Shown piece by piece: positions 4,821-43,532 of a stretch of DNA of 64,000 bases. The stretch spans positions 18,646,103 to 18,710,102 of the forward strand of contig NC_087072.1 of the NCBI RefSeq assembly GCF_026151205.1, read 5' to 3'. Within the stretch, counting starts at the first letter, position 1. Every line of letters begins with the position of its first letter. The translations under genes and the position numbers were made by a program. The DNA is from Bolinopsis microptera. Taxonomy: Eukaryota; Ctenophora; Tentaculata; Lobata; Bolinopsidae. Below the pieces are notes generated by a model. It saw only the letters and a list, made by a program, of their open reading frames with translations. It was not told the origin of the DNA and did no database searches.

Positions 4821-7800
4821 CTGAAATGGACGTAACCTTATTTTTGGGTTTTCGATTAAAAGAGATTATTTATATTCTAATTTAACATGGTTAGCACTTA
4901 GCCTCAAATCTCAGTAAATATTTGTTTAAAATTTTAAGAATTCACACCTAAAACAAAAGAAAGGTTACAGTTGAAATTTGAGATCCGAACCAAACAAATT
5001 GCTAACCTCTATCGTCGCTTAATCTAACCATTTGTGGTCGGTCCGGGACACAGCACTGAAATTGGCAGGTTTAGGAGTGTGAACTGTGAAGTGCAATTTA
5101 ATTAGCATGCGGGTTGTGAATTGCTGAATTGTGATGCGCTTACATGTTGCATTTTACTTTAATTTCATATGGTTAAAAATCCTAACGTAATTACTACAAT
5201 CCAACGCCAATGACCAACCGTGTGTCCCATACACAATTAATTTGGCTTTCTGCCGACCCGTGATTGAAACTAGTTTATTCAATTACTAATTATCAGTCTA
5301 GCGTAAGAAATAGATCACCTGACACCTAGTTTACGTCATCCTTGATACAATCTGCTGGATATTGTAAAGATTTATACATCGTTTCTATGGAAACTAGGGC
5401 CACAATTCACAAAACTTAACCAATTACATTATTACCCCATTAAGGTAGTAAACGCGCGTACCTTCTGTACGCACAGATTGTACGCGCAAGGCTTTCTGTT
5501 ATAGTGGCTGCCTATAAAGTTACATCAACTTAACACACAAACCGCTACTTCGCGCGTTCCATAATAAAAACTCTCGATTTTACACTATTCACAAAAATCA
5601 TGGTGCAATCATCGACCGTCATATACGAGACGAGACTATGATATTAAAGATATTGATATTTCTTGTCTTAGACCAACAAATGATAAGCTGAACCGAAAAT
5701 TATTTCTTAAAATTGAAATTAAAATTAAAATCGTCACGACTTGGGGGCCGCACCATGACGCTACACGCTAGCACAGACTTGTCGTACTAATACATCAACT
5801 GGTCCAGGACCTGTCCCCCGCCTTTTAAATTACTCCAACCTGTCTAGTGTCTAAAACACCTGCATTATGTCTAGTGTCTAAAACACCTGCATTATGTCTA
5901 GTGTCTAAAACACCTGCATTATGTCCAGAACTTATCCGAAACTTGTTGAGAACGACCATTTAAATAGAAGATCTTAGATCGCATCTGTCAAGATATCGTT
6001 GCAATTAAGTAGTAACTGTCAAAGAGACTTTAATATAAAAATAATTCTTAACATGGACTGTAATATACGACACATCAAGCTTGCGGGATAATTCCGTATT
6101 TCAACCACAAAACTCAATAGCTGTTGTAGTAGTTGTGGAATACTAGTATTAGGCGGGATGGTTTCGTAGACTCTTTGATCTTTTGAACACCAATGTGGTT
6201 ATTGTGGGGGTGTTGCTAAATGTGGGGCGATTATAGTTACCCGGATAGATCCAATAAAAAGTCGAAAAACCTGAACATGACGTCTCATTTGAAACACAGG
6301 AGAATTGGTATCGTATGGTTGGTATGGTTATGAAGTTAGTGTCTAGTGACGATATAAGTAAGAGTATTTGAGTTAGAGAGGAACATGGTGTACTTGAACC
6401 CAAATAATTTGCTTCCATAAATTATTGATTGAGACATAAATGGTCAGTCTCGTTGCAGTTATACACCGACGATGCAATTTAAAATGTAGCCATCGCCACT
6501 GAAGTACTTTCAAGTCAACTATTAGCTGTCAACCCATACTTATTAAATACTAACCTCGTAATAATGACATATTGCATTTAGTATTGCACGAAAATTGCTT
6601 AGCCGTTCTACCTGTTCCGAACGATACACCATTGCAGTTTTTGAAAAGAAACGAATAAACCGCAAATAACACAGGGACAGAAAACATCATCAGAGAATTA
6701 TTGAGTAAGAAATAGCCAGAAGCGAAAAGTACATATTTAGAAAGAATCAGGGATATTGATTCGTTATAAAGACATACCCACAGCGAATATTTTAATGGAA
6801 GGTAGAGAGTAGACACTGTCCTTATCTACACATCAGAACAGTGTAACTTCAACCCACCTGCTCCGTATTAGGTAATTTCCATACAATTTCAGTTAGCGAA
6901 TTTATTGAGGTTCTCATAATAACTTATTGAAATTTGTGGGGTATGTTGTATCCACAGCAGCCTCCCTGAACATGACATGATTCTATCCTTGTATTGGATG
7001 CACATAGTGCACTACAAACGTGGATTGTGGTTGAACCAAGCTGTTGTTAATGTTTGTGGGCTTCCCATACTTTGTGAATGATATCAAGCAATCATAGCTT
7101 TAATAGAATCATGTCTACTCCCTACGAAGGATCTCTCCTCGGTCTCTTTCCTTTTTCAGAGCGTTAGCAGCCTCATGCGACTAATCCCTCACGTAGCTCA
7201 TATACATAAACCAGCTCACGGCCTCACGCACAGACTATCGAAACTTCCCCACATCCAGTAAGTCTTTTTGTTGTTTGAAAATCGATCGTGCAATACAATT
7301 TCACATTAAAAGCGCTGACCTTTGGCAGGCGATAACTTCGGCTTGCCTTGGAACAATATTTTTCTATATGAGCAAAAGCAACTGTATGGTAGATATCACT
7401 CCTCTCTATCAGAAACAAGACCCCCCTCCTCCCCCTTCTTAAAGCGAGCCATACAGTTAATTAAATAATTCGGTAAGATCAGTATATCATGATATATCAT
7501 GTTTAACTTATCACAATAGATCTCTGATCTGATAGTGACAGAGCTAACGAGACAATATGATTTTACCATGAGCCTATTAATGACAGATTTACTCATTACA
7601 GGCTTACTCATTACGATCCAGCCGCAGTCTTACTTTTCCTGGTAGCAAGATTTTACAATTCCAGACTCTTACAGGAAGTCATCTGGTGACTGTCTATTGT
7701 CAATTGTCATTGACAATTAAAAAGACAATCTATCAAACCCTGATCGATGTTTATTCATCAAATGAAACAATGGGTACGACAGGCTCAATGAACCTGATCA

Positions 7801-9467: not shown

Positions 9468-12400
9468 ATGTTTCTGTTCTTGCTGGTTTCAATCTTTAGC
9501 AGTGGTCAGGTGACATCTGACGAGCTTCCACCAGGTGATTTTCATTATTTCTTCCCGAGCGTTAAAATGAATAGATCATATTGTATTCTGGCAGGGGATA
9601 GCACGCTAAAACTAGATTGAAACTTATTTGAGTGATATAACTTAATTTCGTGTAATAAGGTAGTCGGAACTTCAAGGTTGTTTTAAGAAATGGTATATTG
9701 TCACCTACGGTAATCTGTTATCTGTAATGATTAATTATGATTGAGTTCGAGTAATGCACTATTTTATGATTCTATTTCAGATTACACGAATTCAGAAATA
9801 GGGAAATGCACAAACGTCGGCTATAACTTACCAGGAACACACACCCACAAAGATAGCCTGAGCGGTATCAAGGTTTAAGAGCTTTATCATAGTATCATTC
9901 TTAAAAGTCATCTTAACAAGAATTGCGCCGGTTAGCGGACGCTAGATTTCCATCGCCACGTAATTAATTACAATTAACAATTGTTTCATATTGGTTAAAT
10001 TACCAAATTTCTTTGGGGCGTTACAGAGAACAAAATGGAGGGATTGCCGTTGTCAATTATTTGAATCGAAAGTTAAACGACCGGACACCGTAGCGCAGCC
10101 TGTGCGGTGATATGCATGATGCAGTTAAAAGGACATCTGTCCGACAGCGACTCTTGTCCGACTCAATATGTTACCAGAAAAAAAGACATCTGTCCGAAAT
10201 TGTGATCTAATTGCAATAAGACACATTTCCATTTTCCAATTAGAGACATGATCTGAACTGAGATATGACCTGAGCTGAACTCTACCATAGTTTATTTTCA
10301 TTTGCTGTCAAAAATTGGACAATAGTTTAAATGTTATATAAATAACTGATCTCCATACCGCTCTCCTGTGTGTAATGTAGGCTGTGATGTGATTGGCAGC
10401 TTGTTACACTGTTACAGCTTGTTAGTGTACGGCTAGCATGATCCTGTCCTCAAATAGTCAATCACGTATCGATGGATCAGATCTCAATGGATCAAATCAG
10501 CATTATATTAGGACTGTGGGAGCAACGTCACAAGATTACACGTGAGCTTGTGAAATACGAACGTGATCTGAAATTGCGAATGTGATCCGAAAGTTGGACA
10601 GATGTCGCCAAAAACGACTCCTATCTGACAGCGACTCTTGTCCGAAACCGGTAATTCGACTGTCGGACAGATGTCACCCAATCAAATCTGTGGTAGTTAA
10701 TACAATGTGAATCATAATAAAATGTATCGTTCATTTCGTCTAAATATAATGAATCAATCTATGGGCAATCATGTTCAACATGATAGTCATAACATCATAA
10801 TTTATACAACAACATAACGGATTACTAATATCGGGTTGCACCAAGCACCCACAACAAAATGAGAAGTTTGTATCGAATTGACAGCTGAAAAACTAATAAA
10901 ATAACCCTCTCAGGGTTGTGTGGACGAATGTGTAAGTATGGGTGCTCAGACCTGCGCTGGGGTGAACTGGAAAAACAATGTTGTCAGATGCTTCCTTAAG
11001 AATCCTGGTTTCGGAGATAAGGTAGCGAAGGAAGGTGTAAACTCTGTGGATTTAAGCTGTCTCGAGAATAATCGTAAAGGTCAGTTGAAAATACCCTACG
11101 CTTTAGATTTTTTTAAAGTTATCGAACAAATTTATCTTTATCATTATTTCGGAGCTTGGTCGTGCGTTATTCTGGGCTAAAAGGTATACTGATTTGTTTA
11201 GGAATGTTGTTCCAAGCCGAATATAACACTGTTACGTATTTTAGTTGATGGTGGATGGAGTGACTATGGAGAGTGGTCAGACTGTTCTAAGGAATGTGGA
11301 ACAGGATCCCAGTCAAGAACCAGAACCTGCAAAAATCCTGCTCCTGCTCACGGTGGAACTGAATGTGTAGGAGAAAACACTGAGACTCAAGATTGCAACA
11401 CACAAAGCTGCCCTGTTGATGGCGGATGGAGTGACTATGAAGAGTGGTCAGACTGTTCTAAGGAATGTGGAACAGGATCCCAGTCAAGAACCAGAACCTG
11501 CACAAATCCTGCTCCTGCTCACGGTGGAACTGAATGTGTAGGAGAAAACACTGAGACTCAAGATTGCAACACACAAAGCTGCCCTGTTGATGGCGGATGG
11601 AGTGACTATGAAGAGTGGTCAGACTGTTCTAAGGAATGTGGAACAGGATCCCAGTCAAGAACCAGAACCTGCACAAATCCTGCTCCTGCTCACGGTGGAA
11701 CTGAATGTGTAGGAGAAAACACTGAGACTCAATATTGCAACACAGAAAGCTGCCCTGTTGATGGCGGATGGAGTGACTATGGAGAGTGGTCAGACTGTTC
11801 TAAGGAATGTGGAACAGGATCCCAGTCAAGAACCAGAACCTGCACAAATCCTGCTCCTGCTCACGGTGGAACTGAATGTGTAGGAGAAAACACTGAGACT
11901 CAAGATTGCAACACACAAAGCTGCCCTGTTGATGGCGGATGGAGTGACTATGAAGAGTGGTCAGACTGTTCTAAGGAATGTGGAACAGGATCCCAGTCAA
12001 GAACCAGAACCTGCACAAATCCTGCTCCTGCTCACGGTGGAACCGAATGTGTAGGAGAAAGCTCAGAGGCTCAGGAATGCAACACACGTGACTGTACAGG
12101 TAAATATACAACCAACCTATTGTATATTTTATATCATCCTCAGCCCGTCCCAGTTTCCCAGTTTCTCTTATAAAAACGTGCAATACCCGGCGCAGCATGA
12201 GCAGCTATACCGATTATCCCCAGCGATCCCGATCCTTTTATACAATACTCAACGAAGATATCGAAATAAATTTAAGTATCAATCACCACAATATAGATCT
12301 AGTTTACATCCGTGATATATACTAATTACTAACCACCAACTAAAGGTGACACAAATTGCAACTGGGCATCTTTAGTGGTTTTAAAACTTACGTGTTCAAT

Positions 12401-15297
12401 CACTATTCATATCAAAATTTGTAACACATAGATATAATTAAAATTAAACAAACCTTGATGAGGTTCAGGACCTCTTTCTCCGTTTCAAATTTCGTGTAAT
12501 AAGGTGGTCAGAACTTCAAAGTTGTTTTAAGAAATGGTATATTTTCACCTAATCTGTTATCTGTAATGATTAATTATGATTGAGTTCGTGTAATTTGCAC
12601 TATTTTATGATTCTATTTCAGATTACACGAATTCAGAAATAGGGAGATGCACAAACGTCGGCCAAAACTTACCAGGAACGCACACCTACGAAGATGGTCT
12701 GAGCGGCATCAAGGTTTAAGAGCTTTATCATTCTTAAAAGTCATTCTTAAAAATTGACCATGAAATACCTATAATTTCAAATTCCTTAGAATGAGTATCA
12801 TTATTATTTTTACTGTTTTCAGTGCGGACTGCGGGATAAATTGTCTCCATCGATATCATAAACTGAGTTTTATCTCAGAGGCGAGGTTGAGCACTGAAAT
12901 CAGTTTGAACAACTTTATCTGGAGGAACAATTAACTACCTAGCGTATGTAGCCAGTAACTGGTATCAGGTAATTGACAGCTGAAAAATTAATATAATAAC
13001 CCTCTCAGGGTTGTGTGAACAAATGTGTTAGTATGGGTGCTCAGACCTGCGCAGGGGTTAACTGGAAAAACAGTGTTGTCAGATGCTTCCTGAAGAATCC
13101 TGGTTTCGGAGATAAGGTAGCGAAGGAAGGTGTAAACTCTGTGGATTTAAGCTGCCTCGAGAATAATCGTAAAGGTCAGTTGAAAAAATACCCTACGCTT
13201 TAGCTTTTTTTTAAAGTTATCGAACAAATTTATCTTTATCATTATTCCGGAGCTTGGTCGTGCATTATTCTGGACTACCAAGTATACTGATTTGTTTAGA
13301 AATGTTGTTCTAAGCCGAGTTTATCACACTGTTACGTATTTCAGTTGATGGTGGATGGAGTGACTATGGAGAGTGGTCAGACTGTTCTAAGGAATGTGGA
13401 ACAGGATCCCAGTCAAGAACCAGAACCTGCACAAATCCTGCTCCTGCTCACGGTGGAACTGAATGTGTAGGAGAAAACACTGAGACTCAAGATTGCAACA
13501 CACAAAGCTGCCCTGTTGATGGCGGATGGAGTGACTATGGAGAGTGGTCAGACTGTTCTAAGGAATGTGGAACAGGATCCCAGTCAAGAACCAGAACCTG
13601 CACAAATCCTGCTCCTGCTCACGGTGGAACTGAATGTGTAGGAGAAAACACTGAGACTCAAGATTGCAACACACAAAGCTGCCCTGTTGATGGCGGATGG
13701 AGTGACTATGGAGAGTGGTCAGACTGTTCTAAGGAATGTGGAACAGGATCCCGGTCAAGAACCAGAACCTGCACAAATCCTGCCCCAGCTCACGGTGGAA
13801 CTGAATGTGATGGAGAAAGCTCAGAGGCTCAGGAATGCAACACACGTGACTGTACAGGTAAATATACAACCAACCTATTGTATATTTTATATCATCCTCA
13901 GCCCGTCCCAGTTTCCCAGTTTCTCTTGTAAAAACTTGCAATACCCGGCGCGGCATGAGCAGCTATACCGATTATCCCCAGTGATCCCGATCCTTTTATA
14001 CAATACTCAACGAAGATATCGAAATAAATTTAAGTATCAATCACCACAATATAGATCTAGTTTACATCCGTGATATATACTAACCACCAACTAAAGGTGA
14101 CACAAATTCCAACTGGGCATCTTTAGTGATTTTAAAACTTACGTGTTCAATCACTATTCATATCAGAATTTGTAACACATGCATATAATTAAAATTAAAC
14201 AAACCTTGATGAGGTTCAGGACCTCTTTCTCCGTTTCAAATTTCATGTAATAAGGTAGTCGGAACTTGCAATATGTCCGACGTTATCAACTTCAAAGTTG
14301 TTTTAAGAAATGGTATATTTTCACCTAATCTGTTATCTGTAATGATTAATTATGATTGAGTTCGTGTAATTTGCACTATTTTATGATTCTATTTCAGATT
14401 ACACGAATTCAGAAATAGGGAGATGCACAAACGTCGGCCAAAACTTACCAGGAACGCACACCTACGAAGATGGTCTGAGCGGCATCAAGGTTTAAGAGCT
14501 TTATCATTCTTAAAAGTCATTCTTAAAAATTGACCATGAAATACCTATAATTTCAAATTCCTTAGAATGAGTATCATTATTATTTTTACTGTTTTTGGTG
14601 CGGACTGCGGGATAAATTGTCTCCATCGATATCATAAACTGAGTTTTATCTCAGAGGCGAGGTACAGGTTGAGCACTGAAATCAGTTTGAACAAATTTAT
14701 CTGGAGAAACAATTAACTACCTAGCGTATGTAGCCAGTAACTGGTATCAGGTAATTGACAGCTGAAAAACTAATAAAATAAACCTCTCAGGGTTGTGTGG
14801 ACGAATGTGTTAGTATGGGTGCTCAGACCTGCGCAGGGGTTAACTGGAAAAACAGTGTTGTCAGATGCTTCCTGAAGAATCCTGGTTTCGGAGATAAGGT
14901 AGCGAAGGAAGGTGTAAACTCTGTGGATTTAAGCTGCCTCGAGAATGATCGTAAAGGTCAGTTGAACAAATACCTTACGCTTTAGCTTTTTTTTAAAGTT
15001 ATCGAACAAATTTATCTTTATCATTATTCCGGAGCTTGGTCGTGCATTATTCTGGACTACCAAGTATACTGATTTGTTTAGAAATGTTGTCCTAAGCCGA
15101 GTTTATCACACTGTTACGTATTTCAGTTGATGGCGGATGGAGCAGCTATGGAGGGTGGTCAGAGTGTTCTAAAACTTGTGGAGGAGGATCCCAGTCAAGA
15201 ACCAGAACCTGCACAAATCCTGCTCCTGCTCACGGTGGAACTGAATGTGATGGAGAAAGCTCAGAGGCTCAGGAATGCAACACACGTGACTGTACAG
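9468..15297 (+). CDS. secreted PAN/apple and thrombospondin type 1 repeat protein (3' end not found)
   Basis: Exon 1 (9468-9534) starts at an ATG and encodes a signal peptide ('[17 protein letters not shown]'). Three cassettes follow. PAN part a: 9781-9872, 12622-12713, 14398-14489. PAN part b: 10914-11079, 13009-13174, 14791-14956. TSP1 exons: 11245-12099, 13345-13857, 15127-15297. Phases are fully consistent: each cassette enters and leaves in phase 1. The PAN/apple fold is inferred from the length and cysteine pattern ('GKCTNVG', '[19 protein letters not shown]', 'RCFLKN', 'LSCLEN'). Each 57-residue TSP1 repeat has '[17 protein letters not shown]', 'SRTRTC' and six cysteines. Such proteins are usually extracellular and bind glycans or matrix. 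The last TSP1 exon ends at a phase-1 GT donor; no terminal exon is visible, although reading through would stop near 15369. Gene identity beyond domain content is unknown. Confidence 0.85.
9914..10690. mobile_element. insertion(s) unique to the first PAN intron
   Basis: The intron between PAN exons a and b is 1041 bp in the first cassette but only about 300 bp in the other two. The extra DNA begins with the dispersed AACAAGAATTGCGCC block and includes a MITE-like segment bounded near 10131 by GACATCTGTCCGACAG and near 10672 by the inverse (CTGTCGGACAGATGTC). The sentence-like word GACAGCGACTCTTGTCCG occurs near both ends. No reading frame is present. Confidence 0.6.
11245..12099 (+). repeat. 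five tandem 171-bp TSP1 repeats in one exon
   Basis: Exactly 855 bp, i.e. five units of 171 bp (57 codons). The units are nearly identical at nucleotide level, differing by few bases such as GGAGAG/GAAGAG. The final unit differs in its last third ('[13 protein letters not shown]' instead of '[13 protein letters not shown]'). Confidence 0.9.
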
Positions 15298-30228: not shown

Positions 30229-30708
30229 GGCAAAAAGTTAGAAAAATCTATTATTATTGTGATATCGACTGTTTATATATATATTATATATTTAAGTATG
30301 TTGATGTATATTGAGGTATTATATTAATTTGTCAATAGGGATGGGACTCTGGTTGATTCTTGATGATAAAACATAATTCTTTTGAGTGTGAGACGGTAAA
30401 TCCTTCTTTCTTAAAGAAATTTAAACCAAATAAATTATACATGATTTCACCTGTATTTTAAAAGACGCTTAACAATCGAAACCTATCCCAAATGAAAACA
30501 ACTTTGACTTGGTTACCAAAAGTTGTGCATTATTATGGGAGTGAAATTTTTGCGCTGATTACAAATTATGTATATCATTATATAATTTTTCAAAAAATGG
30601 TTTGAAAAGTATTGCCAAAAAATTTTACCAAGGACAGTTTTTGAACAAATTATATTAAAAAGTCTACTATAAATGGCTTTTCAGGTGACTTTGGTTTTTA
30701 TGGTTTTT

Positions 30709-30835
30709 TTAACGGGTGATACTCGTCAAATATCTGTTCCAGATATTATTATTCCAGGACCGTCGACGAATCCAACTCGGCGCGCGTCCTGCAGTAGGTT
30801 GTAAAACTACAATGGTTTTGCAGCCGTATAAAACG
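30709..30835. repeat. copy of a palindrome-containing repeat family
   Basis: TAACGGGTGATACTCGTCAA, ATATCTGTTCCAGATATT, CCAACTCGGCGCGCGTCCTG and GTAGGTTGTAAAACTACA match, in the same order, a block at about 43131-43240, and in reverse a block at about 42861-43080. The termini resemble those of an inverted-repeat transposon. Confidence 0.6.
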
Positions 30836-30843
30836 GTTTTACA

Positions 30844-31033
30844 TAAACCTAATCCCAACCCTAACCTTCACATAGCCATGTTCTACGCGTACTACGTGAC
30901 GCTCTTGTTTCACAAGCCTTCGGCGGTCGCGCGCTAAGGAAAGCGAGAAGGCTCTGGTTAGAGCAAACCCTAACCCCAACCATAACCCCAAAGCTATCCA
31001 TAACCCTTATCACAACCCTAACCCTATTAGGGT
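30844..31033. repeat. degenerate telomere-like CCCTAA tract
   Basis: Scattered and tandem CCCTAA/CCCAACC words (for example AACCCTAACCCCAACC near 30965 and CAACCCTAACCCTATTAGGG near 31011) cover about 190 bp in two clusters. The tract ends in the opposite motif TTAGGG and abuts the truncated start of a retrotransposon. Confidence 0.7.
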
Positions 31034-32595
31034 TAGCGGAAACAAATGAAGGTCCTGAATCCAGCAGTTTGTATCAATTAACTGGATACAACAGTTTCTA
31101 CCAAAACACAATACCAGATAAAAAAAAGGGCACTGGAGTGGCTCTCTATGTTTGTGACACTCTTAGTGCCAGAGTAAACGGCAATGTATCCCATATCACT
31201 GAACATTTAGAAACTCTTTTTGTGGCCGTAAGTAGTACAACTTCCCCAGTAACAGTTGGTGTAATGTACCGTCCTCCAAGTGGTAATGTCAATGTTGCAC
31301 TATCTGAACTCTCTGACATCCTTGACAGTCTCCCCAAGTGTAGTTACCTAGCGGGTGATTTTAACATTGATTTACACGATAAGAATAGCACAATCGTACA
31401 ACGCTATGAAGAAATACTATTAAGTAAAGGATTTTTCCCCCTAATTTCGTTAGCAACACATGAGAAACCAGGCTGCAAAGCATCCTGTATTGATAACATA
31501 ATAACTAACGACGTAGAGAGTATAGTAGCTTCTGGAATACTGACTGACCGTATATCACACCACTCACCCATCTTCCAAATCTTTGATAGAAACTTGGACT
31601 CTAGCAGAATTGACCTGAAATACAAACAGTATTATGATTACAACAAACCGAATGTAAAAGCTTTTTTACAGACTCTGGAACATGATCTCAATAATAATGT
31701 TATCGACAATTTTACAACATTTCACGACATATTTAAGGACTGTATAGATAGAACTTGTAAGTTAGAAACCCCTAAATGCTCTAAAAGAACAGCACTGAAC
31801 AACCCATGGATTACACCAGACCTTGGCCTTGTGGGCAAAATTTCATATCAGCACGAACTTTACGATAAATGGGTAAAGGTCAGAAAAGTTAAATGTAAAT
31901 TTGGGGAAATTGAAAATAAAGGGGGGACATGCCAATGCCCAATATGTTGCTCAAAACGTGACAAGTATAAAAAATACAGTGACTGCAGGCGGAAGGTCAA
32001 AAAAGATCGCCGCAATGCTCAATCTAAGTTCTATGGTGGAAAATTTGCAGAGTTGCACGGAAACAGTAAAAAGACGTGGGAATTAATTAACCAAATACGG
32101 GGTAAACGAAAACGACAAACCAAACCTCTATTTACTATCAATAATGAAAAAATTACTAATCGTAGGGTAATAGCTAATGAGTTTAATAAGTACTTTGTCT
32201 CCCTAGCTTCTAATCTTAACGAGGCATACAATGAAATCGGCGAACTATTAATTAATGGCATCCCCAGTATCTATGACTACCTACCAAAATCCAACACGAC
32301 CAGTATTTACATGCATGATTGTACAATCGATGAAGTATGTAAAATAATATCAGAATTGAAAAATGGCAAATCGTCTGATATCCCAATACATGTTGTAAAA
32401 GCGTCATCCAGAATTATCGCCCCCCTATTATCTGTACTATACAATGAATGTTTGAAGGAGGGAATATTCCCGGACGATTTAAAGATTGGCAGGATCAGTC
32501 CCATATACAAGAAAGAAAATGAAGAATTACTTGAAAACTATAGACCAGTCTCTACCTTAGCCGTATTTGGTAAGTTATTCGAGAAAATTATATAT
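31034..32595 (+). mobile_element. CR1-like non-LTR element 1, 5' part (endonuclease and start of RT)
   Basis: The reading frame starts within the apurinic-type endonuclease domain ('ETNEGPESSSLYQLTGYNSF'), aligned with residue about 145 of ORF2 in the related element inside it, so the 5' end is truncated. Visible endonuclease motifs are 'VMYRPPSG', 'LAGDFNIDLH', 'CIDNIITND' and 'SHHSPIF'. A Cys-containing knuckle ('CQCPICCSKRD') precedes the RT, whose first motif is 'KIGRISPIYKK'. The frame is broken at 32595 by insertion of element 2 and resumes at 40029. From 32596 the frame runs into foreign sequence and stops at 32625. Confidence 0.85.
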
Positions 32596-32648
32596 GTGGA
32601 CAGTATTGGCATGCGAACTGCGTAGGCCTTAATGGACTAAATAGTAAG

Positions 32649-34556
32649 ATGCTCAATGATCTCACACAATGGCCCTGTCCCTTTTGTTTTGTATCACCTA
32701 TTGCTACTATATCCACCCAAGTTGACGTCTGTCACGTCTGCAGAAACACTTTATCACTACAGCAGTCAAACCTGGAAGCAGAAACAGCACTCATTTCATC
32801 ACAACTAGAACCCTTAGCCAATTGTTGCAAGCTCATTAAGGATATTGACTTTGTTCAATTCAGTAACAGAATTGACACACTTGGCCAATTTGACCAACGC
32901 CTTCAGCACCTCCTCCTAAAAGACCAGCCCTGGAAATCCTTAGACTCAGATATAAAGCTCCTTTCAGACCAGTTGGCCACTACCCTAGATAAATCACCCA
33001 CACCACCACTCAACACCACAATTGAAAACCTCACAACTGCCTTACAAACTCATGACAAGACTTTCCACTCACTCACCAACCAACTAAATGAACTCAAACA
33101 GCAAGTCACATCCCTATCATCAGACATGACCACCTCACCAACATCAGATCAATCTGAAAAGCTCCTTGAACGGGTGTCACAAGAGCTCAGAGAGGTATGC
33201 AAGCAGGAGCTGAAGCAATCAACAGCAAATCTGCAGCATTCCTCAGAGCATCCACTGACCCTCCCTGGATTACAAGAGCTCAACACCCAGGTTGTAACCC
33301 AGCTGCCCCCACACAGTCGCCCGCCTGTCTCTAAACACACTCTCGATTTTATTGATGAAGAGACAGAGAAGGATCTCATAGAAATGCTTGATTCTCGCAC
33401 ATCTGAGTTCAAGAATGAGAATGGACGATCTGTTCTGGCTTTTGGAGAAAGATATCACTACACTGGCACAAAATCATCACCCTCATCCGACCAACTCCCA
33501 GACCAACTCCAATCACTCATAACACAACTGAACAATGATCATCCAAACTCTCCACCTGTCAACAGCATTCTCATCAATCGGTATGATGGTCACTCAAGCT
33601 TCCTTCCACAACACTCAGACAACGAACCCCTCATTCACCCTGACTCATCAGTACACACACTTTCACTAGGTCACCATTGCACAGTCACTTTCAGCAAGAC
33701 TGGCACCACAGAACCCTATCACAACCAGTCTTGTCCACCACGATCACTATACACTATGACCAGGGCAAGTCAGGATTTGTACGAACACAGAATTGAATCA
33801 GGATCTGTCGACTCCGGTGTTCGATACTCTGTGACCCTCAGATCTGTTAGTGCTCTAAACCGTGCTTCTACATGCATCATGGGAGATTCGAACACTGGTG
33901 GACTTAAATTTGGACTTGATCCTAAGAGATCCTTTGGAAAGTTCCTTCCTGGAAAACAAGTCTTCGCACCTACTGTAGACCACATTGACCCATACGAATC
34001 CTGCGGCTACAAAAACACTGTCATTCTCTGCGGACTCAATGATATTAGGCAGGATAATGTCAAAACTCCATCTGACATCAAACAAGTGTTCAATAAATTT
34101 ACTAGTAAAATTGCTGAAATTCAAGCTGTCAATAAAAAAACTAATGTTTATATATGTCCGCTGCTGCCAACTAAATGTATTGATTTAAATAGAAGAGTCA
34201 ATTTCTTTAACTATCTGATACAAACCCAGCTTCTCCCTTTCAACTTTGGTGTGAGACTGGTAGAAGGGTTTCCAAGCTTTGCTGATGAGAACGGGCTATT
34301 AAGCCAACACTTGTCAAAAAGGTTGACGAAGTTCCAGAAACCTGATTACTTACACCTCAATTGGAGGGGGGTTGCAAAATTAGCAGCAATCATTAAAAAT
34401 ACTATTCTTCTTAGAGTTAATGGTGGTCGAGACAGACGCAGAGCTGGACGAGGGGGGAATCAGGTGGACTCCACATCATTTCGTGACATAACTGCACGCT
34501 CTCTTCCTGCTGATAAACGAGTATCTGGTGCTCCTGACGGCTACCAACCGTCATGA
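32649..34556 (+). CDS. element 2 ORF1: zinc-ribbon, AlkB-like dioxygenase and SGNH esterase domains
   Basis: A 635-residue protein. Residues 10-31 have CxxC-x14-CxxC. Residues about 40-200 are helical/coiled. Residues about 235-400 match an AlkB-type 2-oxoglutarate/Fe(II) dioxygenase: 'ILINRYDG', metal ligands H322-x-D324 ('PQHSDNEP'), 'LSLG', distal H380 ('YEHRIESG'), and 'VRYSVTLR' with R392 and R398 spaced as in AlkB (RxNxTFR). Residues about 408-600 match an SGNH hydrolase: 'MGDSNTG' (S414), 'CGLNDIR' (N464) and 'DYLHLNW' (D566, H569). Esterase domains are known in ORF1 of CR1/L2-type elements; AlkB normally removes alkyl groups from nucleic acid bases. All catalytic residues of both enzymes appear intact. 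The fusion suggests nucleic-acid repair or demethylation by a retrotransposon, which is inference. Confidence 0.85.
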   Translation: MLNDLTQWPCPFCFVSPIATISTQVDVCHVCRNTLSLQQSNLEAETALISSQLEPLANCCKLIKDIDFVQFSNRIDTLGQFDQRLQHLLLKDQPWKSLDSDIKLLSDQLATTLDKSPTPPLNTTIENLTTALQTHDKTFHSLTNQLNELKQQVTSLSSDMTTSPTSDQSEKLLERVSQELREVCKQELKQSTANLQHSSEHPLTLPGLQELNTQVVTQLPPHSRPPVSKHTLDFIDEETEKDLIEMLDSRTSEFKNENGRSVLAFGERYHYTGTKSSPSSDQLPDQLQSLITQLNNDHPNSPPVNSILINRYDGHSSFLPQHSDNEPLIHPDSSVHTLSLGHHCTVTFSKTGTTEPYHNQSCPPRSLYTMTRASQDLYEHRIESGSVDSGVRYSVTLRSVSALNRASTCIMGDSNTGGLKFGLDPKRSFGKFLPGKQVFAPTVDHIDPYESCGYKNTVILCGLNDIRQDNVKTPSDIKQVFNKFTSKIAEIQAVNKKTNVYICPLLPTKCIDLNRRVNFFNYLIQTQLLPFNFGVRLVEGFPSFADENGLLSQHLSKRLTKFQKPDYLHLNWRGVAKLAAIIKNTILLRVNGGRDRRRAGRGGNQVDSTSFRDITARSLPADKRVSGAPDGYQPS

Positions 34557-37500
34557 CTACTCTAACTAAAGAGGTATGTAAACACTGCTGCAAGGGTATC
34601 TATGTGGGCCAAGCCATAGTCGAGTGTTCCGAATGTAACCATGCAACTCATCATAAATGCTACAATATTGTCAATACCGATTTATGCGGTAACTTTCTCT
34701 GCAATACATGTGTAAATCTTGCTGTAAAACGATACAACCCGTTCAAATATGATATTTCCGACGAAGAAATCGATCTAGACGATACGATAACTAAGCTCTC
34801 GCAAATTTTAAACAGTTGTTCTCAGCTTAACAGAAGTCAAATTAATCAAACTCTAGAAACTTTAACCGAAGGTCAAATGTCAATGATGTTTCAAAACATA
34901 GACGGTAACAAAAGTAACTTTGATACTATGTGTATAGATCTTCGCCGATATAACAAAAAGTTTTCCATAATTGCACTTGCTGAAACAAATGTAGGACCTG
35001 AATTAAGTAGTTTGTATCAATTAACCGAATACAATAGTTTTTACCAAGCAACCTTTCGAGAGAAAAAGAAGGGCACCGGAGTTGCAATTTATATCCACCA
35101 GTCACTAAATGCAACAATCGATAATACCCTCTCCTATGTGAGTGAAAACCTAGAAATCCTATTTTTAAGATTCAACAGTGGTAACTCAAGCACCTTTGTT
35201 GGAGTTTTATACCGCCCTCCGAGTGGCAATTTTGACTTAGCGCTAAGTGAACTAGCCGACACTCTGGACAAAGTCCCCAGACACTCGTATATAGCTGGTG
35301 ACTTTAACATCAATCTTCACGGCGACAGCAACAAGGTTGCTAAATATGAACACGTTCTTTACAGTCGAGGCTTCTATCCTCTCATATCTGTAATGACCCA
35401 TGAAAAACCCGGCTGTATTCCTTCATGCATCGATAACATCATTACCAATGATTTAGACAACATTATAACATCTGGCACATTCAAAGACAAAATCACACAT
35501 CATCACCCCATATTCTTAGCACTCAACACACACCTTGACCAGAACGATTGCAAGATTAAGTATGAACAGTTTTATGACTACTGTAACTCTAACGTAGATA
35601 AGTTCACCGACAAACTATCCAATAGTCTTGATAACACTGTAATAAATTGTTTTGATACCTTTGCTGACACATTTAACGTTGCTTTTGACGAATGTTTCAA
35701 GTTAGAAACCCCGAAATGTACAAAACGCACTATGCAAAACAATCCATGGATTACACCAGCAATTATAACATCAATAAATCACTGTCACGAACTATACGAA
35801 AACTGGGTCAAAGCTCGCAAAGTCAAGTGCAATCTAGGAGATACTGACACAAAAGGTGGCTTCTGTCACTGCGCAGTATGTAACAAAAAGCGCAGTGAGT
35901 ACTTAACTTATAAATATTATAGAAAAGAACTCAAAGTTATACGTGAAAAGGCTCAAACTTCGTACAATATGGGTAAATTTAATGAAGTTCAAGGTGACAG
36001 TAAGAAAACATGGCAACTAATCAATAAGATACGCGGCAAAGGGAAACGAGAAATTAAACCCCCGTTTGTTATTAATAATGAGAAAATAATGAACCGTAGA
36101 ATTATAGCTAACGAATTTAATAATTACTTTGTATCTCTTGCCCCTAAGTTGAATGAATCATACAGTACAACCGGTCAAATTAGACTAAGTCCAATTCAAT
36201 GCTTTACGGACTACTTACCAAGGCCAAATACCTCAAGTATATTTCTCAGCGATTGTACACCAGAAGAAATAGAGAAAATCATTAGCGAACTCAAGAATGG
36301 AAAAGCTAGTGACATCCCTATTCACGTCATCAAACGAACAGTCTGTCTATTGTGTCATCAATTTTACCTAAGTTAAGTCAGAATTCACACACCTTATGTA
36401 CCTCAAATAGCCCACTGGCAAAATCATTTTTCTACAGAACTCATATACTGTGGAATGGACTCCCTTTACAGGTAAGACAGATTGTGTCTACTAGTGTTTT
36501 CAAAGCTGAGGTCACTAAGCATCTATGGAAATGTTTATTGGATAGTGAAACAACAGCCTAGCCTAGTCTCTTTTCTCCCCATATTATTATTATTTTTGTT
36601 TTATTAATTTTTTATCTACCTTCCTATACTTTCAACATCATATCACACTTCACCCGCACACCTCACACATTAATGACCATATCAGACCTGTATCTAATGT
36701 ATCTGGAATTTGACGTATTGAAATACCAATTTTGACTATATATCCACAGTTATTCACCATGGATTTGTTTGTTATTAAATAGTTTTTCATAAATTTTTGG
36801 ATTTAGATTAATTCGATGTAATGGGTCCAAGTTACTGCGGACATAGTTCACTATGTGTTTACCGTGTTTGGGTGCCCATCATATTTTACAGATGGGGGCG
36901 ATATTTTGAACGATTCTATTTTATATTAATCTATTGCTGTACTCTGTAAAATTTGAAAAGTATTTAATAAAAAATAAGCCCACTCCTGTCAGTATTATTT
37001 AATGAACACATGAGAAATGGAACTTTTCCAGACCGACTGAAAATTGGTAAAATTAGCCCTATATACAAAAAAGACGGTACAGAATATCTCGAAAACTATA
37101 GGCCAGTATCTACCCTAGCTGTGTTCGGAAAGTTATTTGAGAAAGTAATCTACTCCCGTTTGTACAGTTTTCTTGTGTCGCAGAACGTTTTGTTTGAGAA
37201 CCAGTTTGGTTTTAGGAAGAGTCACTCAACTAACCACGCCCTTAATTACTCAGTTGACTATGTAAACTCCCATATAAAGGAAAAGCAACATGTATTAGGT
37301 ATCTTTATTGACTTATCAAAGGCATTTGACACTATCAGTCACGATAAACTTCTCATAAAACTTGACAAATATGGTATAAGAGGTAACGCAAACGAGCTTA
37401 TTGGATGTTACCTATCTAACAGACAGCAGTACGTTTCAGTTTTAGGTGAGGAATCTGATAAACTCCCTGTTATTTGTGGAGTACCACAAGGTAGTGTTTT

Positions 37501-38527
37501 AGGACCGCTACTGTTTATAATTTACATAAACGATATCTATAACTCATCAGACCTAGGAAAATTTATACTTTTCGCTGATGACACCAATATATTTGTAGTC
37601 GACAAATCTGTCCAGAATCTCTACCAAAAAGCTAATACTATAATGAATTCTGTTTACAATTATATGAAATGCAATCTTCTCCACATTAACATCAAGAAAT
37701 GCTGTTACATTCACTTTACACCAGGAAAGAAGGATGTAACTAGTAGTAGTAGTAATAGTAATGATCTTATTTTAACGTTGAATAACACAGTCATTAAACG
37801 TGTTGATGAAACTAAATTCCTCGGCGTTATTATAGATAAAAACCTTAACTGGAAACCTCATACTGCATATCTTAGTTCTAAATTAAAGTGTGAAGTCGGT
37901 AAACTCTGCCGTATGAGAAGATTTATACCTAAAGAGCTGTATAATGACCTCTACCACACCCTCTTCGAATCTCATCTAGGATATGGGATCTCAGTGTGGG
38001 GAGGCATATCGAACAATAGGCTTGAACCAATATTTAAAATTCAAAAAAAGTGCACTCGTATTCTATTTGGTGATCAAGAGGCATACAGTAATAAGTTCAA
38101 AACATGTGCTAGAACCCGCCCAATTGGATCTCAAAAACTTGGAGCCGACTTCTATAAACGAGAATCAAGTAAACCCCTTCTCAGCAGAAACAAAATACTC
38201 TGCGTGCATAATTTGTATAAGTACCACTGTCTACTTGAAATGTTTAAAATAATCAAACTTCACACTCCAATACCGATGTACAATTTATTTCAAAAGTCAC
38301 CCCGACGTGATAACTACTTTATTAACCCCGCTGCAACCAATTTGTTTGTATATAAAACCTCGAATATGTGGAATAAATTCCTTAAACCTTCTAGTAAGAT
38401 TGACTTCTCGTCCCCAATTGCACTTGTTAAAGGTCGCATTAAAACTATGCTACTCAATGCTCAAAAAGCTGGAAACACTGATGAATGGTCAGAACTCAAC
38501 TTTGATGGAAATGACATGTGCCTATAA
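34553..38527 (+). CDS. element 2 ORF2: PHD finger, endonuclease, reverse transcriptase (interrupted)
   Basis: The ATG overlaps the ORF1 stop as ATGA. Residues 9-53 form a C4HC3 PHD finger (C9, C12, C25, C28, H33, C36, C50, C53). The endonuclease follows: 'FQNIDGNKSNFD', 'ALAETN', 'VLYRPPSG', 'IAGDFNINLH', 'SCIDNIITND', 'THHHPIF'. A Cys/His knuckle ('FCHCAVCNKKR') precedes the RT. At about 36331 the frame runs into foreign DNA and stops at 36376; the RT resumes at about 36980 ('SPLLSVLFNEHMRNG'), with 'FIDLSKAFDTI', 'GVPQGSVLGPLLF', 'LFADDTNIF' and 'LGVIID'. FADD replaces the usual YADD. The C-terminal region is typical of CR1-type elements. Apart from the insertion the two halves are open, so it was active until fairly recently. 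Confidence 0.85.
36331..36979 (+). mobile_element. 3' tail of another non-LTR element inserted in the RT
   Basis: The insert encodes a short RT C terminus ('YRTHILWNGLPLQVRQI', '..VFKAEVTKHLWKCLL') ending at a TAG near 36559, a pattern seen at the end of several non-LTR polymerases but not matching the host element. It is followed by a 3' UTR ending AATAAAAAATA. It replaces about 18-21 bp of the host RT, judging from element 1. Being 5'-truncated and ending in an A-rich tail, it fits target-primed reverse transcription. Confidence 0.7.
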
Positions 38528-40028
38528 TAAGAACATACAAACTAGTCCATATAGATTTCATACTACACACACAAAATAACACACACAATACACACCACAG
38601 TCAAACATAGAAACTATATATTCACACATATAACACAGAACACTGATCAGCTCACCCGCTTTACACTAGTGTCTGGACTTGTCTGGAGTGTACGTCTGGA
38701 ACGTGGGACGGACTCACAAATATATTGTGTAAACGTACGGCGCGAAACTTAAATATTGTATAACTCTATCATTTCATTACCCAGCGTGATTTACCGCGCC
38801 AGATTAATGAAATGACGCCGCGCTATATCCGTGAACCTACCGTCACTTATATCTTATATTTTATATTTCGTATCTCTTACTACGTAACGCGAAATTAAGT
38901 TGTATCACACTCCCGGTTTTGGACCCCAATGTTAACCTTGCAGCAACTGTGTCAGCCCAATATACTCTAGAAGTATGATCACACTTATTTTAATGAACAA
39001 AAGACCCATAATTAATATAATCAGATACTCGTCAACAGCAGCAGTTTCCGTCCGTGTGATGTGTTGTCCTCCTCCTTTCTGTGTCCCCGTCGTTTTGTTT
39101 TGTGAAATGTATTGTAGTAGTGTTTTAATATTTAAATCGAACGCAACTCAATAGTTAATAATAACAAACACAAATACTATTTCAAATAATTGATTAATAT
39201 CGATTTATACGAACCAAACATTAATTATTTTTTAATAACCTTTTATATATGTGTTAAACGATCCAGGGCATATCTAAAATTCGATAATGAACTTCATATA
39301 TTATTAGTGCCGCGTGCTGATAAATATTCTGGGAATCAATCCACCCAATCGTGGCGATAACATATTTTTGTGCTTGGCCGGTTTTAGGTTTGAGTTTGTG
39401 CTCCAAAAGTGGTAAATCGGGTGCTAGTAAAGCTCTTGCAGGCAACTGGCTCCTTTTGCCAACTGCTTTTGGTTTAAGCGCGGACTCACATTTGGAACTG
39501 GCACTGGTATAATTGTAATATCCTACGAAGTCAGCATGCTATATTATTTTGCAAAAATCGTTTAATATCTTGACAATATTTAAAGTTTATGGATTTAGGT
39601 TTAGGCGCGGCGCACTGCTTATATGTTATAGCTCATTCAGCTTCTGTTTTCAGCGATGTGTTGCTACACACTGTATAGCATGTGGAACAAGCGCGGTGCC
39701 GCGCCTAAGCAGCAAAAGAGTTATTTATTTTAAAATTTATTTTTGTATCTCAAAAATGATGTAAAGTTTTTAATATGACGTAGAATTAAAGCTATTTCCG
39801 TACAGCCTAAGTGCTAAGCATGCTCGTTAGATAAACTATAAACAAGGAACATAACATGCTAGCTTTCTTTATTTCTTTATTTTTGTAAGTCGTGTCGGCT
39901 GACATCTTGGGTTGTACTGGATGTAACAAGTTTATTATCGGATGTCTACTTATATTTATTATGATATCATTATTCATTGTAATGGCAATAAAATTTAAAT
40001 TTTGTTTTACTTAAATTTTGTTTTACTT
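38528..40028 (+). other. presumed 3' untranslated region of element 2
   Basis: No coding potential was found. The segment finishes with AATAAAATTTAAATTTTGTT and a second copy of the 16-bp word TTTTGTTTTACTTAAA, a short terminal tandem repeat of the sort that ends CR1/L2-type elements. Whether the whole 1.5 kb belongs to the element is inferred from the insertion boundary at 40028. Confidence 0.55.
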
Positions 40029-41399
40029 AGTAGGCTATACAGCTTTTTCCAGTCACAAAATATGATCTATGAAAATCAGTATGGATTCCGTAAAAATCAC
40101 TCTACTAGTCATGCCCTGAATTTCTCAGTGAATTATATAGAATCATGCCTTAATAAAAAGCAGCACGTGCTCGGAATATTCATTGATCTAAGCAAAGCAT
40201 TCGATACCATCTCAGCTGACAAATTACTGAGTAAGCTAGATAATTACGGAATTCGAGGCAATGCCAACAAACTCATTGCTAGTTATCTCTCTAATAGATA
40301 TCAATACGTCTCGGTCCTAGGAGAAGATTCTGACAAGCTTCCAGTTCTCTTTGGAGTACCCCAGGGATCTTGTCTTGGTCCGTTACTATTTATTATTTAT
40401 ATCAACGACCTATATAGGGCAACTGAACTAGGCAAGTTCATTCTATTTGCTGACGATACAAATATATTTGTCGCGGATGAATGTAAGATAAAGTTATATG
40501 AACGAGCAAACCAAATTCTCAAACTGGTACAACTGTATATGAAATGTAATCTCCTGCATATTAACATTAAGAAATGCTGTTACATTCACTTTAAACCAAC
40601 GAATAGAAAAAGCAAGGTAGAACATAATGAAGAAGAACACGTACTTACTCTAAACAATGTAGTAATAAAGCAAGTCAAAAAGGTGAAGTTTCTTGGTGTT
40701 ATTATTGATGATCAGCTTAAATGGGATGCTCATATACGGTCGCTCAACACAAAGCTGAAATGTGAAAGTGGGAAAATTTGTAGAATACGGCACATTATTC
40801 CAGAAAAACTCTACAAAGAACTGTACTACACACTATTTGAATCACACTTGCGATTTGGGATATCAGTATGGGGTGGCCTTAGTAACAACAGGCTTGAACC
40901 AATATTTATCACTCAGAAGAAATGTGTTAGAATACTATTTGGTAACCGAGAGGCGTACTTAGAAAAGTTTAGAACTTGTGCTAGAACACGAAGTAAAGAC
41001 AAGCAAAAATTAGGAAGCGACTTCTATGAAAAACAGCACACAAAACCGCTATTTAAGAAAAATGGTTTACTAACCATACACAGTTTGTTCAAACACACAT
41101 GTTTATTGGAAATGTTCAAAATCAATAAATTAGAATCCCCAGTCCCACTCCTAAATCTATTTAACAGATCATCAAGACGTGCTGATCGATTCATCACTCC
41201 AACCCCATCCACCTCCTTCATATATCAATCGACAAAAATGTGGAACGATTGTAGAAACACTGCTAGCAATATCAACTTCTCTACATCAACGAACCTTGTG
41301 AAATCCACAATAAAAAAGGAGTTACTCGGCATGCAGTACAGGTACGACGAAATAGATTGGTGTGAACTGAACTTCGATTCCAACGAACTGAAATTCTAA
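40029..41399 (+). mobile_element. element 1, 3' part (reverse transcriptase)
   Basis: The RT frame continues exactly where element 1 broke off at 32595: 'SRLYSFFQSQNMIYENQYGF', 'FIDLSKAFDTISADK', 'GVPQGSCLGPLLF', 'LFADDTNIFVAD', 'VKFLGVIIDDQLKW' and the C-terminal 'CARTRSKDKQKLGSDF'. It ends with a TAA at 41399. Rejoined with 31034-32595 the frame appears open, so element 1 was intact in this part when element 2 landed. Confidence 0.85.
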
Positions 41400-42860
41400 T
41401 GTCTACTCAATGAAGATATGCTGAGCGCTAAAGCCGATTGAAATGTTAATGTCTAAAGTATAAAATTTCGGCGGTCACGCCGCGCATTTTGCGCGCTGTG
41501 CCGCTATTTTTGGCCCATCTTATCAGATATTATTTACAATGTACTCGCACAGTACATGCAGGGCATGCCTCAAGATCATATTAGTGTAGGAATCATTATG
41601 TTTTCAACAATTCATTATATGTCGAATTCAGCAGTGGGTCCTCTCTTCGTCCGGTTTGTGTGTTTGTCGCCTGTCTGGACTCTCGTAGTCATGTAATTTT
41701 TAATTTTTAATTTCTAATTTGTTATTTTAATTTTAATTTTAATTTTTCAATTTTCTAAATGTGTGTTCTGCTCCGGGACTCGATTACCGTATCGGCTTTC
41801 TTGAGACTGTAAATTTGGAAAGCCAACTATGCGGGGCGCCTGCCCACCGGCACTGAAGAGTGATCAAAGAATTAACTAAAATTTCCTAATATAACGATTG
41901 AATATAGAGTTGTTTAACCGGCGCGGCCATGGGTGTGTGGCCTAGCTTTGGCTGCACACCTATGACTGCGCTGTTGCTGGTGGACAGGCGCAGTTTTTGT
42001 TGTGCAGTAGTGTTGCAAGAGAATAAAACCAACTTATTATGTACTAAATGGAATCAAGAATATTATTGACTATATTTGATAACGATGAATTGTAAATTTC
42101 GATCAATTTATATTTTTCGGTCTCCAATTATTGAACTGCGGAAGCTGGTTGCCTCAACAATATTGACTATGCATGGTATGACTGAATTGTAAAAACGTGA
42201 TAATTGAACGAAAAATAAATGATGAACATGATTCAAAAACTGTAAACCACCAAATGAATTATCGCTTAAATTTAAATAAGTATTTAAACAAAAACCACCA
42301 TGTGCCGTTAAGCAGCAGGGCGCGGCTCATCTGGGCCACAGCAAATCGGCGAAAATGGGTTCGAAAAAGCCACTATTGGCACTCGAGTCCTTGATCTTTC
42401 CGATGGTTCACTGGGGCTTTTGAGCTGCCGTCCTTCAGCTTCTGTAAACTGAAATTACTACCAATCCAAGTTGAAGCAATCAGCCGACGCGCGGCTTTTA
42501 TGGTTATATATGATATGTTTAATCTGTAATAAAGATCAAAATTCAAATTTGTTTCTCCAAAAAAAAATTTGTTTCTCCTAACCTGAGTCTTAAACAATCG
42601 GATTCAGACCATGTTTATCAGCCTGTCGCGTGACCAAAACGGTTTTTTGCCCATAACTTTTCAGGGAAGCATTTTTACCCACATCATGGGGGTGTTTCGG
42701 AATCAGCGTCCAAAATACATCGGTTTAGGTCAATTTAATACCCAAAGGGCCTTTTCACAAAAATTTTCTTAAAATTTGGGCGAGCGATTTAGTTGGAGCG
42801 CACAGTACTCTTCACAGGTAAGAAGCTCGAAAAGAGCGCCGTGCACGGGGATATAATTGT

Positions 42861-43240
42861 AGGTTTATAACCTACCAGGACGCGCGCCGAGTTTGACTCA
42901 ATACTTGTAGCGCGATGCACTACTGGGTCGCGCGCGCATCAAATAATGCTTCTCGCAACCTTCGGTAGATCGGCGAGATGCACCACTGTGCCTCACCGAG
43001 CTGCGAAGGATTGACATCGTGAATCAAACTCAATACATGGAACAGATATTTTACAAGTATCACCCGTTAAGGATATAAGCGCGTTTGGTAACAACATTCA
43101 GAGCTTAATTTTTAAAGTAGCTACGACATTATTAACGAGTGATACTCGTAAAATATCTGTTCCAAATATTAAAACAGTCGCGACGAGTCCAACTCGGCGC
43201 GCGTCCTGGTAGGTTATAAACCTACAACAGGATCCCTCTT
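42861..43240. repeat. two inverted copies of the palindrome repeat family
   Basis: TGTAGGTTTATAACCTACCA, GGACGCGCGCCGAGTT and later GGAACAGATATTTTACAAGT (left, 42861-43080) recur inverted at 43131-43240. GTAGGTTTATAACCTAC is itself a palindrome. The left arm has about 110 extra bases containing CGCGATGCAC and CGAGATGCACCAC. A third copy lies at 30709-30835. Confidence 0.7.
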
Positions 43241-43399: not shown

Positions 43400-43532
43400 T
43401 TGACGGATGTTACTCGTCTAAATTTCTTTGAAGTAGCGCGCGCCGGGCCAGACAATAAACAATGGTCAAGCCCGGCGCGCGCTACTCCGTAGAAATTTAT
43501 ACGAGCAACGGAGTAACATCTGCATCCGTCAA
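43400..43532. repeat. foldback element with GC-rich stem
   Basis: TTGACGGATG...TTACTC, AAATTTCT and GTAGCGCGCGCCGGGC on the left pair with GCCCGGCGCGCGCTAC, AGAAATTTA and GAGTAAC...CATCCGTCAA on the right around a loop of about 25 bases. The stem has a few mismatches and bulges. The CpG-rich stem stands out from the AT-rich surroundings. Confidence 0.75.

Follow-up and report, generated by a model that had tools for sequence, protein, structure and literature searches.

Why should the first open reading frame of a retrotransposon carry a dioxygenase of the AlkB family beside its esterase? The question is raised by a 64,000-nucleotide stretch of the Bolinopsis microptera genome (the window), in which a sequence-only reading had recognised, within a single open frame at 32649–34556 of the plus strand, a retrotransposon ORF1 fusing an AlkB-like dioxygenase to an SGNH esterase. 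The fusion and its setting in a non-LTR retrotransposon are now confirmed by the PF13532 profile, the catalytic residues, the AlphaFold2 fold, the genome copies and an endonuclease–reverse transcriptase (EN–RT) ORF2 downstream. The features concerned are as follows.

31033..32594, plus strand: element 1, first part, with endonuclease and start of the RT (99.6% to copy L057 over 1563 bp)
32595..40028, plus strand: element 2, a 5'-truncated LINE inside element 1 (blastn against L039–L041, junction frames, contiguity of L057)
32595..32745, plus strand: rear part of a PHD-type finger and second zinc knuckle (read in the ORF1 frame from before the ATG to past it; the whole finger is present in homologues)
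32649..34556, plus strand: ORF1, open frame of 635 aa with knuckle, helices, AlkB and SGNH in this order
32733..33239, plus strand: long helices, residues 29–197, presumed coiled-coil region (AlphaFold2 secondary structure, pLDDT about 45–75)
33306..33851, plus strand: AlkB-type 2OG-Fe(II) dioxygenase domain, residues 220–401 (H322, D324, E326, H380, R392, R398)
33858..34424, plus strand: SGNH esterase domain, residues 404–592 (S414, N464, D566, H569)
34553..36344, plus strand: ORF2, first part, zinc finger and endonuclease (ORF list; PF03372 E 6.5e-7)
36345..36973, plus strand: 629-bp insert breaking ORF2 of element 2 (absent from L039)
37010..38527, plus strand: ORF2, second part, reverse transcriptase (PF00078 E 2.2e-36)
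39995..40028, plus strand: 16-bp tandem repeat tail, 3' end of element 2 (TRF array 39995–40029; junction against L057)
40028..41939, plus strand: element 1, second part, RT and downstream (99.9% to L057 over 1912 bp)

The residues assigned from the letters alone, H322-x-D324, H380, R392 and R398 for AlkB and S414, N464, D566 and H569 (Ser, Asn and Asp-x-x-His in order) for SGNH, were placed correctly and, together with E326, are invariant in all 37 aligned proteins, that is the window ORF and 36 near-full-length homologues of the 57 found (P0028 and P0039–P0058 were omitted). PF13532 matches residues 266–398 of the window ORF1 (E 7e-14, 52.9 bits against a curated cut-off of 31.2) and is found at E ≤ 0.01 in 36 of 37 family members; the esterase profile PF13472 remains under its cut-off of 32.9 in the window copy (E 0.05, 14.5 bits) and reaches E ≤ 0.01 in 18 of the 37. 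The AlphaFold2 model gives most residues from about 221 to 590 a pLDDT > 90, the value falling to 69 at 271–280. The sequence-only reading hung on structure prediction giving a double-stranded beta-helix with the H-D-H triad, and the AlkB half of the model indeed matches solved AlkBs of this fold, as the other half matches solved SGNH hydrolases; the zebrafish ZfL2-1 esterase (4c1b) is absent among the 50 structural matches listed.

The CxxC...CxxC knuckle reported at the start of the frame stood only in part: the second knuckle is present, but the first part is the surviving rear of a PHD-type finger, since homologues, mostly ~100 residues longer on the N-terminal side, show the PHD-type pattern there, which rules out a gag-type knuckle. 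Only the rear of the finger is left in the window because this copy is 5'-truncated. PF00628 (PHD) reaches E ≤ 0.01 in 16 of the 37 members, and the family-alignment profile matches solved PHD fingers with a best E of 1.6e-4. As the full copy L039 of the window's own subfamily has no PF00628 or PF13472 match at E ≤ 0.05 in Pfam, the support for calling these domains PHD and GDSL comes from homologues, profile and fold.

The initial 3750 bp of element 2 are 99.95% identical (blastn) to L039, located elsewhere in the genome. Similarity to L039 begins at 32595, and on frame translation ORF1 runs on upstream to this point, the ATG at 32649 being internal to the frame; its length is 741–751 codons in 20 genome copies, compared with 635 aa in the window. 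L057 is an uninterrupted copy of element 1, and its single base 5090 joins what the window splits at 32595 and 40028. Since both flanks meet at this base, element 2 is a 5'-truncated insertion in element 1; comparison with L057 shows no target-site duplication longer than ~1 base at the two junctions. Element 1 belongs to the sister subfamily L057/L058 (RT 98.9% identical), the copies of which likewise have the PHD region, AlkB and SGNH, and position 41939 is the end of the L057 stretch used for comparison rather than a mapped end of element 1. Within element 2 the TGA of ORF1 is overlapped by the ATG of ORF2 as ATGA. The 629-bp insert, which has no match in the other genome loci compared, interrupts ORF2 relative to L039, so the window copy cannot be autonomous. 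ORF2 also starts with a cysteine/histidine-rich finger (34553–34720; weak C1/RING/PHD profile matches in copies L039 and L042), so that a zinc finger opens both ORFs of the element. The window also holds several repeats. Degenerate telomere-like CCCTAA repeats (30990–31035) lie right before the point where similarity to element 1 starts, and GGCGCGCGTCCTG-type dispersed repeats, direct and inverted, flank element 1 on both sides (30706–30812, 42848–43236 and 43409–43509) and could be a short non-autonomous element. Further away, 171-bp tandem repeats at 11244–12087 and 13344–13845 (4.9 and 2.9 copies by TRF) look by eye like thrombospondin type-1 repeats.

Could the fusion be an accident, with a host AlkB gene adjoining a retrotransposon or joined to it in assembly? 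Searching the genome (264.65 Mb in 232 contigs) with the AlkB domain gave at least 150 matches (150 scored of 774 first-look candidates); 143 of the 150 scored are without an internal stop, as counted by eye, and 74 sit in frames of at least 700 codons. In the 20 loci examined in detail, selected for long frames, PHD region, AlkB and SGNH share one frame without exception. The sequence-only reading had made its case depend on the AlkB region being shared by other copies of the family, and these 20 all have it. EN and RT matches follow ORF1 in each of them, as a single open frame in 18 and broken in L055 and L056, i.e. as a LINE-type ORF2; in L041 the remainder of ORF2 is set off from ORF1 by an insert of ~0.8 kb. 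The ATGA overlap recurs in 8 of 12 junctions inspected (L039–L046), and the coding sequence of L039 spans 871–6443, more than 5.5 kb. Dispersed, 5'-truncated and near-identical copies, a hallmark of LINEs, are present, the window copy being itself truncated and nested, and the family is abundant and recently multiplied in this genome. The helical region was located by BLAST in only 14 of 21 loci. The number of copies and their constant domain order, along with relatives in Mnemiopsis, refute a chance or assembly fusion, to which we attach practically no probability. In L042 a divergent AlkB-SGNH ORF1 fragment (about 365–826, minus strand) lies head-to-head upstream of another copy.

The protein database search gave 57 relatives (7984 candidates scored), 54 of which carry PF13532, and these relatives rule out an oddity of the window only. 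Four come from Mnemiopsis leidyi (P0034, P0035, P0045 and P0059); three of the four carry PF13532, a caution that gene models named 'AlkB' in genomes like these could be ORFs of transposons. Are there forms in which one partner stands alone? In a protein search with SGNH only, which like the genome searches below reaches close relatives only, 17 of 18 matches carry PF13532, and the lone exception, P0059, is a gene model retaining just both ends of the AlkB domain. In the genome AlkB is present in all 22 loci examined (the 20 plus L059 and L060), which were chosen for their long frames; the many shorter SGNH frames of 165–400 codons may be truncated or broken copies or AlkB-free ones. It lies just upstream of the SGNH match in 62 of 62 loci (44 distinct places), the majority of which had been chosen through an AlkB match or a long frame. 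L038 and L062 have AlkB but no SGNH match within the stretch examined.

A search of the genome with the PF13532 profile again returned at least 150 matches (150 scored of 587 candidates), mostly in other frames; those listed have 551, 593, 611, 646, 676 and 707 codons, some exceed 3000, and many are further repeated families. Three of the four further families read (L061–L064) are AlkB-SGNH fusions: in L061, L063 and L064 an AlkB domain (E 3.1e-23, 1.7e-19 and 2.2e-18) is followed by GDSL/SGNH (E 4.3e-6, 6.5e-4 and 7.1e-5, under the Pfam cut-off), and the esterase blocks Ser, GxND/GTN and D-x-x-H can be made out by eye. The fourth, L062 (C3:14440900–14442300, minus strand), has AlkB followed by tandem low-complexity repeats in a 3321-codon open frame, and several giant frames of this kind appear in the same search. 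The AlkB domains of the three fusions are 27–31% identical to that of the window lineage, with the six catalytic and contact residues still kept, and their SGNH halves align weakly with the window's (22–26%, E 1e-4 to 0.009). RTs are found ~3 kb past L063 (L065, PF00078 E 6.8e-19) and L061 (L067, E 3.7e-40); compared with that of the window they show 44% identity over 154 aa and 31% over 353 aa, respectively. Judging by distance and strand across the intervening 1.5–1.6 kb, L063/L065 and L061/L067 probably each represent one element. The 476-aa protein P0064 is a distant AlkB-SGNH fusion (PF13532 E 1.5e-16, PF13472 E 1.1e-5), its AlkB matching ALKBH2 (E 2.6e-14) and its esterase half, weakly, the ZfL2-1 ORF1p (4c1b; E 0.016). 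Scanning viral_contigs with P0064 for a viral origin gave no relative. A 163-aa frame, L066 (C10:14635600–14637000, plus strand), loosely resembles by eye a degenerate AlkB domain and has no RT match within the stretch chosen.

Is the AlkB domain maintained in these elements? The dN/dS across copies proposed in the sequence-only reading was estimated by NG86 for pairs with dS of 0.05–1, which leaves out 162 of 210 AlkB pairs with dS above 1. The AlkB median is 0.163 (range 0.117–0.306; 20 of 210 pairs), compared to 0.104 for SGNH (20 of 210), 0.058 for EN (20 of 190), 0.044 for RT (25 of 190) and 0.159 for the helical region (20 of 91). These 20 AlkB pairs amount to few independent comparisons, 12 of them being a single one: L051–L056 against L057–L058 (dS 0.25–0.28, dN/dS 0.15–0.18). 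The others are four within L047–L050, three of L055 with L051, L052 and L054, and L044–L048; seven of these have dS < 0.08 and one has dS 0.99. Pooled near-identical pairs (dS < 0.05; 28 for AlkB) give 0.34 for AlkB, 0.26 for SGNH, 0.22 for EN, 0.16 for RT and 0.78 for the helical region. AlkB is therefore under purifying selection, within the few independent comparisons available, looser than on EN and RT, and it is less constrained than SGNH (0.10), EN (0.06) and RT (0.04).

Does the domain work as an enzyme, or is it retained for RNA binding or structure only? No activity is known for this AlkB half, and the GDSL domains of Athena-L retroelements, according to the available part of PMC5408684, lack catalytic residues. 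However, the six metal, 2OG and base-contact residues are present in 37 of 37 proteins, and intact at 39 of 42 distinct genome places (the exceptions being L018, truncated and changed at H322, L034, changed at E326, and L060, changed at H322), and they are kept even in lineages ~27–31% identical in AlkB. We consider a purely non-catalytic role very unlikely.

Which base would such an enzyme act on? E326 is the acidic residue of an HxDxE motif, aligned to HRDDE of ALKBH2; besides the 37 proteins it is found in P0064, L059 and L061–L064. ALKBH3 has this residue as well; ALKBH5 and FTO are not known to have it. The single AlkB sequence of the window finds ALKBH6 and ALKBH8 best in the PDB (E 2e-6 to 4e-6; ALKBH2 E 0.36), whereas for the family profile and for L063, L064 and P0064 the closest solved relatives are ALKBH2/3; in the structural comparison ALKBH3 and ALKBH2 are equal in Z and both stand above ALKBH5. 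The active site appears to lean towards the m1A/m3C-type ALKBH2/3 class, and the matches of the sister lineages may strengthen this substrate argument a little. Fold and residues leave the substrate unfixed, as ALKBH3-like and ALKBH2-like readings are indistinguishable here. Human ALKBH3 and ALKBH2, which unlike the ORF1 domain serve the host in repair, share 17–22% identity with it. This genome has an ALKBH2 segment of its own, L068 (ALKBH2 E 5.3e-55), with just 27% identity to the window AlkB over 83 residues.

An m6A eraser that hides the element RNA from host surveillance based on m6A, the role suggested for the AlkB of an orchid Ty3/Gypsy element, is unlikely in our opinion: the acidic base-contact residue of ALKBH2 is retained, ALKBH2/3 outscore ALKBH5, and the PDB sequence matches of L063, L064 and P0064 at E ≤ 1 do not include ALKBH5. 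Nor need m6A erasure benefit a LINE, since retrotransposition of human L1 is aided by m6A and suppressed by ALKBH5, as described in the accessible part of PMC7873242. We find it quite unlikely that the AlkB half works instead on DNA, repairing alkylation or lifting methyl marks in target-site DNA or new cDNA, with the PHD-type finger bringing the complex to chromatin. Such a role would fit the dsDNA enzyme ALKBH2 being among the closest solved relatives and the PHD-type finger of the longer relatives, but nothing links the enzyme to DNA and the ALKBH2-like affinity cannot be told apart from an ALKBH3-like one.

We propose instead, giving it about an even chance, a PHD–coiled coil–AlkB–SGNH LINE in which the AlkB half would clear m1A/m3C-type modifications or lesions from the RNA of the element itself or from its first cDNA. 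What sequence and model show is the architecture, the intact catalytic residues, the predicted fold, the copies, a constrained AlkB and the ALKBH2-type base-contact residue; catalysis on such a substrate, in cis and to the benefit of transposition, is our inference. ORF1p would assemble on the element RNA via its helical region, and the esterase half would act as in other esterase-type ORF1 proteins, in a membrane or lipid step. The AlkB half would use Fe(II) and 2-oxoglutarate to strip, by oxidation, marks or lesions of the N1-methyladenine/N3-methylcytosine type from this RNA or from the cDNA strand made first. Adducts of the m1A/m3C type block base pairing and stop reverse transcriptases, so their removal would help reverse transcription to reach the end of long templates; a LINE like L039 has to copy its coding sequence of more than 5.5 kb from one RNA, and would do so within an RNP carrying the dealkylase. 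More tentatively, and with the balance somewhat against it, LINEs of this animal lineage may have had an esterase-fused dealkylase, clearing RT-blocking template methylation in the RNP, before their RTs diverged to 31–44% identity.

That this jumping gene keeps, beside the esterase, an intact AlkB, a domain of the kind that takes harmful methyl groups off DNA and RNA, suggests that it carries a tool of its own for repair or for removing marks. If so, a template-repair module would be built into a retrotransposon, in the ORF1 proteins, which are the least understood part of LINEs. A constrained dioxygenase in several lineages makes it testable whether methylation or alkylation of template RNA limits retrotransposition and whether elements counter it, and the elements would offer naturally occurring proteins in which an AlkB-type enzyme is joined to one that packages RNA.

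How does this element compare with known systems? By its ORF1 type (PHD, helices, esterase) it appears to be a CR1/L2-like non-LTR retrotransposon, going by its sequence and the available text of PMC4120745 and PMC3905857. CR1, L2 and RTEX LINEs are well documented as having esterase ORF1s (PMC3905857 and PMC5408684, in part), and in the accessible portions of Metcalfe and Casane 2014 (PMC4120745) they are restricted to two vertebrate subgroups, PHD fingers occurring in CR1/L2 ORF1 types IC, IIC and III, N-terminally as here. Zebrafish ZfL2-1 (PDB 4c1a/4c1b; type IV) similarly has a coiled coil, then an SGNH esterase, in ORF1 ahead of ORF2, and its S143, N195, D279 and H282 (PMC3905857, available text) are the same set as S414, N464, D566 and H569, with the same D-x-x-H spacing. 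In contrast to ZfL2-1, for which that text gives no AlkB, a complete AlkB of ~180 residues is placed here between helical region and esterase. No type in the available text of Metcalfe and Casane, Table 1 included, combines PHD, esterase and AlkB, and the term AlkB is absent from the accessible texts of both PMC4120745 and PMC3905857, in agreement with the sequence-only reading, which had put AlkB outside the described ORF1 architectures. None of the open PMC papers found on AlkB in retroelements, judged by title and start of abstract, describes a LINE that carries AlkB (subscription literature and Repbase reports lay outside this scope).

Selfish RNA-based elements with AlkB are also known among plant RNA viruses, where the domain sits in the replicase polyprotein; BFVD structural matches include plant-virus replicases and polyproteins, which share the fold only. 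Viral AlkBs, according to work attributed to van den Born in 2008, reportedly repair RNA. A retrotransposon-encoded AlkB domain has a parallel in the orchid Ty3/Gypsy family Gypsy_Pa_2799, described in the available part of PMC9289625 as a plant LTR element with an ALKBH5-like AlkB in an additional ORF that is an m6A demethylase in vitro. In the ctenophore element we find not an LTR-type pol but a LINE-type EN-RT ORF2, the acidic residue is of the ALKBH2 type and AlkB is fused to the esterase, PHD–coiled coil–AlkB–SGNH being a class of non-LTR retrotransposon ORF1.
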